Of a stretch of 64,000 bases of DNA, positions 8,971 to 48,669 are shown piece after piece. The translations under genes were made by a program, and so were the position numbers. This DNA comes from Gracilibacter sp. BRH_c7a (lineage in GTDB: Bacteria; Bacillota; Desulfitobacteriia; Desulfitobacteriales; Syntrophobotulaceae). Position 1 is the first letter of the stretch. The number at the start of each line of letters is the position of its first letter. The notes below the pieces were generated by a model, which ran no database searches, was not told the DNA's origin, and saw only the letters and a program-made list of their open reading frames with translations. Where the stretch lies: positions 1-64,000 of the forward strand of contig LOEZ01000080.1 in NCBI GenBank assembly GCA_001516055.1, read 5' to 3'.

Positions 8971-9795
8971 TTGACCAGTTGCAACGCGTGTCCAACCAAA
9001 GAGGATTGTTCTTCTTCTAAAGAGGAGTGTTTGATTGAAAACAATCCTTTCAATGAAGTGAAAAAAGTCATCGGAGTTATGAGTGGAAAAGGGGGAGTGG
9101 GAAAATCAACAATCTCTGCATTGCTTGCTAAGTCATTAAGAGATCAAGGGCATAAAGTTGGAATATTAGATGCAGATATTACAGGCCCCAGTATCCCCAG
9201 ACTTTTAAAAGTGAGAGATAAGAAAGTAGAAAGCAATGAATACGGGTTACTCCCTGTCCAATCAGAAGAGGGCATCTTAGTCATGTCTCTTAATCTTCTC
9301 ATGAAAGATGAGGAACAGCCGGTTATTTGGAGAGGGCCTATGATATCCAATACAGTTAAACAATTCTGGACTGAAGTGTATTGGGGAGAACTAGACTATC
9401 TGATTATCGATATGCCGCCAGGAACAGGAGACGTAGCCCTCACTGTCATGCAGACTATCCCCATCAACGGCATGATTATGGTAACTACCCCTCAAGATAT
9501 GGTATCTATGATTGTGGCCAAAACAATTAATATGACGAAGACTATGAAAATTCCTATCTTGGGCATTATTGAAAATATGAGTTATATCAAGTGCCCAACC
9601 TGTGCAGATAGGATCAGTATATTCGAGAACAGCAATCAAGCTGATTATTTGAAAAGGATGAACCTTCAGCTTTTGACAGAGTTGCCTATGTGCAGAGAGA
9701 TTGCTGCTTTAGCTGGAGAGAAGGATCGAGACGATCTCGAAGCTATCCAAATGATTTCTGAGGCGGTGTTGCGCATCAAAGAGATAGTAAAATGA
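8971..9795 (+). CDS. Mrp/NBP35-family P-loop ATPase
   Basis: Cytosolic ATPase of the ApbC/Mrp type, which carries and hands over iron-sulfur clusters. The deviant Walker A VMSGKGGVGKSTISA is near residue 37, the switch region DMPPGTGDVALT near 148, and a C-terminal CxxC (KCPTC) near 208 is the cluster-binding pair. The N-terminus MTSCNACPTKEDC adds cysteines in the manner of eukaryotic NBP35. Starts with TTG at 8971, supported by AGGAGG nine bases upstream. First gene after a strong promoter flanked by an inverted repeat, followed by NifX-like and ferredoxin-MinD genes. 274 residues, normal. Confidence 0.92.
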   Translation: MTSCNACPTKEDCSSSKEECLIENNPFNEVKKVIGVMSGKGGVGKSTISALLAKSLRDQGHKVGILDADITGPSIPRLLKVRDKKVESNEYGLLPVQSEEGILVMSLNLLMKDEEQPVIWRGPMISNTVKQFWTEVYWGELDYLIIDMPPGTGDVALTVMQTIPINGMIMVTTPQDMVSMIVAKTINMTKTMKIPILGIIENMSYIKCPTCADRISIFENSNQADYLKRMNLQLLTELPMCREIAALAGEKDRDDLEAIQMISEAVLRIKEIVK

Positions 9796-46689: not shown

Positions 46690-46760
46690 GAGACACACCT
46701 CCTTGTTATTTCAGCTTTTAGTCTTTGCTTTTAGCTATAACCTTATGTAAGGAGATGCAA

Positions 46761-46790
46761 AAAACCTAAGGCCCTCAGACCTTAGGTTTT
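46761..46790. terminator. Bidirectional terminator
   Basis: AACCTAAGG (46763-46771) and CCTTAGGTT (46780-46788) pair; A-run on one side and T-run on the other make it work on both strands. It separates the coat genes from the RNA-like element. Confidence 0.85.
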
Positions 46791-46800
46791 TAAACATATT

Positions 46801-47040
46801 GGTGGTATTTGTGTATTACTTAGCGAACCTTAGAGCAGAGAAGCGTCGAGAACGTAGCTGATGAAGCGTTAAGATGTGCCAAACCTCAGGTATTACACTG
46901 AGGTTTGGCACATTAGAGGAATCAGCAAGTGAACATCTTCGGCGCGTGGTACGTTTGTCTCTTGCGGAGATAAACGCCGAAGCCGCAAACTACAAAGAAT
47001 TACATACCGGCGCACGGGCGGGTAATGCACAAATATCACC
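46801..47040 (+). ncRNA. Candidate structured noncoding RNA, about 240 nt
   Basis: The end segments 46801-46819 and 47022-47040 pair over 19 positions. Two further helices are clear: 46874-46889 with 46898-46913 (16 bp, perfect) enclosed by GCTGAT/ATCAGC (46857-46862, 46921-46926), and 46937-46943 with 46976-46982 leading to 46953-46961 with 46967-46975. The three imperfect positions (46805-47036, 46814-47027, 46957-46971) are G-U pairs on the plus strand but would be A-C mismatches on the minus strand, which points to plus-strand transcription. It is richer in G+C than the flanks. No family recognised; no promoter found. Confidence 0.65.
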
Positions 47041-47055
47041 ATAAACTTTAAATTA

Positions 47056-48669
47056 TCAACTATACATAGACTCAAGCAAAGCTTTAATGGTATCACTTTC
47101 TAAATACTCATCATAGGTAAGCTGTCTATCAACCAAACCTTGAGGAGTGATCTCGATAATTCTATTCGCTATTGTCTGAACAAATTGATGGTCCTGAGAC
47201 ACGAATAGAACAGTACCATTAAAATCAATCAAACCGTTGTTAAGAGCTGTGATAGACTCTAAATCCAGATGGTTGGTCGGTTCATCCAAAAGAAGAACAT
47301 TGGCACCGCTAAGCATCATTTTGGACAGCATACAGCGGACTTTTTCACCACCGGAAAGAACGTTCACAGGCTTTAAAGACTCTTCACCTGAAAAAAGCAT
47401 CCGACCTAGGAATCCTCTTACAAATGATTCATCTGGGTCTTTGGAAAATTGCCTGAGCCAATCCACCAGGCTCAGATTCGAATCAAAGAAATGAGAGTTA
47501 TCTTTAGGGAAATAAGCTTGGGAAGTAGTAATACCCCAGCTAAACTCTCCACTATCGGGAACTATTTCCCCCATTAGTACTTTGAACAGCGTAGTCTTAG
47601 CATTCTCGTTAGGTCCCACAAAAGCAATTTTATCTCCTGTATTAACCATAAAAGAAATATTATCCAGAACCTTTTCACCGTCGATAGTACAAGTAAGATT
47701 CTGAACAGTCAATAGATTATTACCAGCTTCCCTGTCAGAGTTAAAGGCGATATAAGGATATTTGCGGGAGGATGGCTTAATATCATCTAAGGTGATTTTC
47801 TCTAATAATTTTTTGCGGGAGGTTGCTTGCTTTGCTTTAGAAGCATTGGAGCTGAACCTTTGGATAAACCTCTGTAAATCTGCTATCTTATCTTCTTTTT
47901 TCTTATTAGACTCCCTCATTAACCTCAGAGCCAATTGGCTCGATTCATACCAGAAATCGTAATTACCTACAAACATCTGAATCTTACCGAAGTCTATATC
48001 AACAATATGCGTACAAACTTTATTTAAAAAGTATCTGTCATGAGAGACTACAATTACCGTACTTTCGAAGTTCAAAAGGAAATTCTCCAACCAGATTTTA
48101 GATTGTAAATCCAAATGGTTGGTTGGTTCATCCAAGAGCAGGATATGAGGATTACCGAATAAAGCTTGAGCCAAAAGGACACGAACTTTTTGGTTTCCAT
48201 CTAATTCGCTCATTTTTTTGGAGTGAAGATCTTTAGTGATACCCAAGCCCATTAACAATTCGCCTGCTTCAGATTCAGCTTGCCATCCATCCATCTCAGC
48301 GAACTCACCTTCCAGCTCTGAAGCTCTTAGCCCATCTTCCTCATTAAAATCAGGCTTTTCATAGAGGGAATCTTTCTCTACCATTATTTCATAAAGCCTA
48401 GCATGCCCCATGATAACAGTATTAATAACTTCGAACTCTTCAAACTCATAATGATCCTGTTTTAGAACAGCAATCCGTTCCCCAGGAGTAACTGTCACGT
48501 CCCCTTTAGTAGACTCTATCTCACCAGATAGTATCTTCAAAAGTGTGGATTTTCCTGACCCATTTGCTCCGATTACGCCGTAACAGTTTCCGGGTGTAAA
48601 TTTTAGGTTTACATCTTCAAACAATGCTCTTTTACCGTAACGTAAGGTTAAATTTTCTGTACTTATCAT
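47056..48669 (-). CDS. ABC-F family ATPase
   Basis: 537 residues with two ABC domains and no membrane part. First Walker A GVIGANGSGKSTLLK near residue 35, second AFVGPNENAKTTLFK near 355 (note NENAKTT, an atypical loop lacking the usual GxGK glycine-lysine spacing). Signatures SELDGNQKVRVLLAQ and LSGGEKVRCMLSK; Walker B LLLDEPTNHLDLQS and LLLDEPTNHLDLES. ABC-F proteins act on the ribosome (translation rescue or drug protection). YkpA/YbiT-like in length. Downstream is the RNA-like element. Confidence 0.93.
   Translation of the reverse strand: MISTENLTLRYGKRALFEDVNLKFTPGNCYGVIGANGSGKSTLLKILSGEIESTKGDVTVTPGERIAVLKQDHYEFEEFEVINTVIMGHARLYEIMVEKDSLYEKPDFNEEDGLRASELEGEFAEMDGWQAESEAGELLMGLGITKDLHSKKMSELDGNQKVRVLLAQALFGNPHILLLDEPTNHLDLQSKIWLENFLLNFESTVIVVSHDRYFLNKVCTHIVDIDFGKIQMFVGNYDFWYESSQLALRLMRESNKKKEDKIADLQRFIQRFSSNASKAKQATSRKKLLEKITLDDIKPSSRKYPYIAFNSDREAGNNLLTVQNLTCTIDGEKVLDNISFMVNTGDKIAFVGPNENAKTTLFKVLMGEIVPDSGEFSWGITTSQAYFPKDNSHFFDSNLSLVDWLRQFSKDPDESFVRGFLGRMLFSGEESLKPVNVLSGGEKVRCMLSKMMLSGANVLLLDEPTNHLDLESITALNNGLIDFNGTVLFVSQDHQFVQTIANRIIEITPQGLVDRQLTYDEYLESDTIKALLESMYS

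Follow-up and report, generated by a model that had tools for sequence, protein, structure and literature searches.

A structured repeat, hitherto uncatalogued, is scattered in hundreds of copies through Desulfosporosinus-type bacteria and their relatives

The window analysed here comprises 64,000 nt of Gracilibacter sp. BRH_c7a (contig LOEZ01000080.1), and the strongly folded segment at 46801-47040 within it is a copy of an uncatalogued structured repeat, of which hundreds of scattered copies occur in Desulfosporosinus-type bacteria and their relatives. The segment had been taken for a separate, resident RNA locus in the original prediction, but proved to be one of these many copies. In our judgement, the repeat is probably a MITE-like, non-autonomous dispersed element of the class that includes Desulfosporosinus, Desulfitobacterium and their relatives. 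Each copy would form a rod in which a terminal helix is followed by short helices, parted by conserved internal loops, and by a distal hairpin. It would spread with the help of machinery acting in trans, by inserting into short gaps between genes. What this machinery recognises may be the folded plus strand, either as RNA or as single-stranded DNA. Where host genes are affected by the copies, this is probably incidental.

The plus strand of 46790-47055 has a predicted folding energy of -105.7 kcal/mol, compared with -63.2 ± 4.3 for shuffled sequences (z = -9.97; 0/200), and the minus strand gives z = -5.99 against its shuffles. The strong fold claimed for the segment is thus borne out, and the 19-position terminal helix, the perfect 16-bp hairpin and the G-U positions that were originally described are all legible in the sequence. 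Read directly, the terminal helix joins 46801-46819 (GGTGGTATTTGTGTATTAC) to 47023-47041, with 17 Watson-Crick pairs and 2 G-U pairs among its 19 positions on the plus strand. The perfect hairpin (ATGTGCCAAACCTCAG/CTGAGGTTTGGCACAT) lies at ~46874-46913, and a further long hairpin at 46952-46976 reads CGTTTGTCTCTTGCGGAGATAAACG. The boundary of the repeat family falls within the terminal helix (Table 1), the outer GGTGG/CACC pairs being a local extension, and the covariance-model match to this copy spans 46806-46970 (E 3.5e-27). The second domain contains a hairpin (46952-46962/46966-46976) closed by 46946-46950/46982-46986, and ends with a small helix (47007-47009/47015-47017). By itself, this domain is a repeated module (ACGATAGTCTCCAGTGGAGAGTATCGCCGAAGCCGC...ACCGGCG) at loci L018-L024, L032 and L035, which belong to further genomes of the order. 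The distal hairpin is perfect because this copy lacks the conserved CGGTT strand of the internal loop, such that AACATCAG reads AACCTCAG. The window therefore holds an altered long-form copy, whose lost distal loop and perfect hairpin fit quasi-palindrome correction, and our findings suggest no site-specific function for it. A hammerhead-like CUGAUGA near 46857 was considered and rejected, as it is absent at the same place in relatives.

Table 1. Coordinates of the window copy of the repeat, its helices and its neighbours
Feature	Position	Strand	Remarks
Long-form copy of the dispersed structured repeat	46806-47035	+	Ends TATTTG...CAAATA
Helix P1, 5′ arm	46806-46820	+	Terminal helix; partner 47021-47035
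Helix P1, 3′ arm	47021-47035	+	Terminal helix
Helix P3, 5′ arm (GAAGC)	46840-46844	+	Partner 46936-46940
Helix P5, 5′ arm	46857-46862	+	Partner 46921-46926
Distal hairpin P7+P8	46873-46914	+	Perfect 16-bp palindrome in the window copy
Second domain (long form only)	46946-47017	+	Not in the short form
Bidirectional terminator-like hairpin	46760-46791	.	Just outside the repeat; read from the sequence
ABC-F type ATPase gene	47056-48669	-	Identity as given by the original prediction and the sequence

The shape shared by the family is one unbranched rod of ~170 nt with conserved internal loops. The short form (~170 nt) most commonly reads TATTTGTGCATTACTTAGCGAACC...GAGCGGGTAATGCACAAATA, while the long form, which has an extra hairpin domain ahead of the 3′ arm, is represented by the window copy, three copies in the congener G001 and one in G045. 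Copies of the f1 subfamily end in TATTTGTGCATTAC/GTAATGCACAAATA. Two G000 copies (L048 and L050) and one from G001 have lost most of the interior and kept both terminal arms, and the interior of some copies contains other hairpins, for example CATGGATGGC palindromes or a repeat of a second type. As originally claimed, the repeat is noncoding: the copies differ by indels and by inserts of modules whose length is unrestricted, and no reading frame is conserved.

To describe covariation, 16 short copies were aligned with MAFFT without regard to structure (alignment A2), and the structure was later derived from A2 itself, mainly by RNAalifold with the distal hairpin set by hand. In this alignment 94.8% of cells are paired, both sides have changed in 27 of the 49 pairs, and the covariation is 0.398 versus 0.172 when shuffled (0/500). 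A covariance model built from the 16 copies (R1) was used to fit larger alignments, which consequently lean towards R1. With 69 copies, 91.7% of cells are paired, 44/49 pairs show compensation, including all 15 pairs of P1, and covariation rises to 0.621 (0.200 shuffled; 0/500). Adding ten copies from a second order gives 91.4% paired, 35/49 pairs and 0.620 (0.201 shuffled; 0/500). The shuffle counts are not probabilities, because the copies are related by descent. When the structure is slid along the alignment, the value drops to ~0.1 or less. Covariation in relatives thus exceeds both the shuffled and the slid controls, as expected of a structured RNA and in keeping with the original prediction. 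P3, for example, is GAAGC/GCTTC, GGAGC/GCTCC or AGATC/GATCT in different copies. The internal loops and the distal GGTT(C/A)AC...AGAGGTTTGG segment stay constant, and the stems change in sequence. Support for the distal helix (A2 columns 94-98/108-112) is weak, at 61-79% paired. The shape is therefore conserved across two orders with nearly free sequence.

Scans with Rfam 15 at gathering and permissive thresholds returned no family match for the window element or for 17 other loci, the permissive scans covering three copies and yielding chance hits or nothing. The Rfam check proposed for the segment was accordingly negative. RNase P, tmRNA and 6S RNA had rightly been set aside, and the suggested resemblance to the raiA motif RNA, which is limited to size and compactness, was abandoned, given that there is no match even at permissive thresholds and that the present copies are dispersed. 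Elsewhere in the window, Rfam models identify a cobalamin riboswitch (RF00174; 5801-5991, minus strand, 88 bits) and a ZMP/ZTP riboswitch (RF01750; 19428-19509, minus strand, 63 bits).

By DNA search, the window's own genome contains 20 full or partial matches, and related copies were found in 29 of 199 relatives. The R1 model matches 56 of the 74 genomes of the order at no fewer than 620 places, this figure being a hand sum of listed counts with up to 38 candidates scored per genome; fuller scoring of one genome raised its count from 27 to 69 copies, the highest per genome. In a second order of the class, six of nine further genomes match, five of them with 9-29 copies each. An exact core pattern was found among GTDB genomes in Desulfosporosinus, Paradesulfitobacterium, Desulfitobacterium and Gracilibacter, and also in a few bins assigned to Peptococcaceae, Bacillota or Clostridiales. 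Phage and plasmid collections gave short chance hits or nothing by blastn, and viral contigs had no match to the exact core pattern. We found no report of such repeats in Desulfitobacterium or Desulfosporosinus in the open-access literature, which does not prove that none exists.

The copies are dispersed, have no coding capacity and possess complementary terminal ends, as MITEs do. Paradesulfitobacterium ferrireducens (G045) carries fifteen copies with an identical 144-nt core in differing surroundings, which share an outer unit consisting of a GCTGC..GCAGC-type hairpin and GGAGTCA-like heptads. At loci L110-L129 of this species, the outer palindromic unit holds the element in either orientation, with arrays of the heptads at its borders. 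At the G001 site orthologous to that of the window copy, the terminator and the ABC-F gene are both retained and enclose a different structured repeat, which also counters the single-locus reading. This second repeat (AAGCTACACCGTAGCATG...CTTGCTGCGGTGTAGCTT) occupies G001:C97 ~9050-9255 (L136), and it replaces the interior of the element in two G000 copies (L039, 4821-5073; L047, ~1999-2240).

Other gaps differ between genomes in a similar manner. The proB-proA gap contains a full copy in G000 and an internal-deletion derivative in G001 whose terminal arms still pair, the terminal helix having T-A in the former and C-G in the latter. Both genomes have a copy in the nusB-tsaD gap, with several paired differences, and in G009, G010 and G012 the aligned flanks are separated by ~11-44 nt, which leaves no room for one. 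Three G001 copies have, at the G000 site, no counterpart (L055), an inverted remnant only (L054) or a decayed remnant (L053). The mraY-murD gap measures 18-32 nt in many genomes and is elsewhere enlarged by the element or by other structured repeats, in either orientation, a pattern that indicates repeated use of one gap and not inheritance. In three families, structured repeats have repeatedly colonised this short intercistronic gap of the cell-wall operon (e.g., L066, L096, L098, L265, L271, and L304). Gene conversion or independent insertion may lie behind part of the shared locations. By our reading, TA is present on both flanks of ~15 of 20 f1-type copies, whilst f2 and f4 copies are inconsistent; the copy-free orthologous gaps are too diverged for base-exact junctions. 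Two further arrangements were noted in Desulfosporosinus-type genomes: inverted pairs of elements with their 5′ ends facing bracket 160-580 nt of palindromic modules (L094 1501-2274; L035 1187-2106; L097 1501-2006; G050:C1 3324179-3324698), and (A)GAACCGTCCC short repeats often adjoin the element (L088, L094, L098, and L108).

The plus-strand preference first proposed for the window segment proved general to the family. In the 16 relatives of A2, G-U pairs outnumber A-C by 58:7 when counted by cells and by 25:3 when counted by column types (p = 3e-5, column types). In the model-fitted alignment the ratio is 92:17 where both neighbouring genes read the copy antisense and 22:11 where they read it sense. 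The excess is thus present in either reading direction, and the plus strand is the better-folding form of the repeat whatever the local transcription. G-T is also tolerated better than A-C in DNA, and the excess therefore favours RNA without proving it; on this ground RNA is slightly favoured over single-stranded DNA as the recognised form. A stricter version, in which the functional form is a folded plus-strand RNA, either of a SINE-like retroelement or serving as a guide or scaffold for some integrase, seems to us rather unlikely. A reverse transcriptase was found in neither G001 (no RVT_1 match; ~20 copies; genome 84% complete) nor G064, which are both incomplete and both bear copies.

It is also conceivable, if considerably less plausible, that the repeat is a host RNA element which acts in 3′ untranslated or intercistronic mRNA on stability, processing or attenuation, and which has spread because it is useful. 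Copies are often located in operons or just past stop codons (mraY-murD, flhB-flhA, nusB-tsaD), and congeners share some sites. The window copy itself follows the ABC-F stop codon and precedes the terminator of the ABC-F transcript, in the position originally described. Transcription of the ABC-F gene runs towards the repeat, whose minus strand would thus be part of the ABC-F mRNA. The terminator-like hairpin, which a pattern scan of the window neighbourhood did not list, is also present in G001, where the window repeat is absent. An apparent recurrence of ABC-F genes beside the window copy, L036 and L100 was rejected, because these are ABC paralogues with ~25% identity that lie on different sides. 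Among 86 copies compared with flanking genes, called as the longest ORF only, 44 are antisense to both neighbours, 19 are sense, 15 lie between convergent and 5 between divergent genes, and the rest are unclear. After removal of one duplicate locus, antisense copies outnumber sense ones by 44:18 (p = 0.001), and convergent placements outnumber divergent ones by 15:5 (p = 0.04), so that few copies occupy divergent, promoter-bearing gaps; both p-values are qualified by the incomplete independence of copies at a shared site. The ten second-order copies show no orientation bias. Hence it is the minus strand that enters mRNA in 44 of 62 codirectional contexts, yet the G-U excess is on the plus strand, and occupancy of sites is sporadic between species; both observations argue against a host RNA element.

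We give little credence to the idea that the repeat is a DNA palindrome whose arms are kept complementary by template-switch repair, with no selection on a folded strand. The perfect palindrome in the distal hairpin of the window copy is what such correction is expected to produce, and deletion derivatives still have complementary terminal arms. However, mismatched loops, which correction would erase, keep their positions between changing helices in both orders, and the G-U excess is strand-asymmetric whichever way the neighbours read.

Two other explanations appear very improbable. In a multicopy family of small-RNA genes, each transcribed from a plus-strand promoter of its own and active in trans, RNA-grade covariation and a plus-strand G-U bias would be natural, but a scan of a weak type saw nothing promoter-like on the plus strand before the window copy, the terminal helix stops at the boundary with no conserved flanking promoter, and sister copies lie in unrelated surroundings. 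Strand-specific hairpins and intergenic sites would likewise suit an IS200/IS605-type (Y1/RAYT) element moved as single-stranded DNA, but replication orientation is even (73:71, with the origin assumed at the contig start), and Y1_Tnp is present in 39 of 56 copy-bearing and 11 of 18 copy-free genomes (Fisher p = 0.57), without being found in copy-rich G006, G009, G004, G033, G046, and G056.

Neither Y1-transposase nor reverse-transcriptase genes track the element, and no recurrent flanking protein was found that could be an autonomous partner, the shared flanking genes being host genes. That neither family is tied to the element counts against the MITE-like interpretation, as do target-site duplications that are inconsistent apart from the TA...TA flanks of f1 copies, and a terminal-helix sequence that varies, unlike transposon ends, which must match their transposase.

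A MITE-like element of this kind has parallels among known repeats, BOX, RUP, and ERIC being of a comparable nature (PMC3049150, PMC2229807, PMC2759123). The BOX elements of Streptococcus pneumoniae are dispersed intergenic repeats of 67-637 bp, modular and with an extensive predicted RNA fold, and they are regarded as parasitic with low present activity (PMC3049150). A modular interior and a fold are common to both when their general architecture is compared (PMC3049150), but we saw no sequence relation, and the present repeat keeps a nearly invariant series of internal loops across two orders with almost every pair changed. ERIC and related intergenic repeat units of enterobacteria are small mobile intergenic repeats of ~100-170 bp (PMC2229807, PMC2759123); relative to these, the present family is far more conserved in shape than in sequence and spans more than one order. 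Structured intergenic repeats with numerous compensatory base-pair changes are also known from Borrelia, but those are plasmid-borne, confined to one genus, and in several cases tied to particular protein genes (PMC2674063). REP/REPIN sequences, which occur with RAYT, are similarly high-copy, palindromic, and non-autonomous (PMC3116915), whereas the present element is a much longer and more complex rod, and lacks the co-occurrence with a Y1 transposase expected of a REP/RAYT system.

What sets the present repeat apart from those already known is that an RNA-type fold is conserved throughout the class while the sequence varies almost freely. Small dispersed bacterial repeats are usually treated as DNA of which the ends are recognised. 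In the present family the ends vary and it is the internal fold that is kept, at no fewer than 620 places in two orders, so that selection appears to act on the fold itself. The repeat also accounts for some of the intergenic sequence in Desulfosporosinus-type genomes, and a covariance model is provided for its annotation. Whether some bacterial MITEs move or persist by way of a folded RNA or single strand can now be tested.
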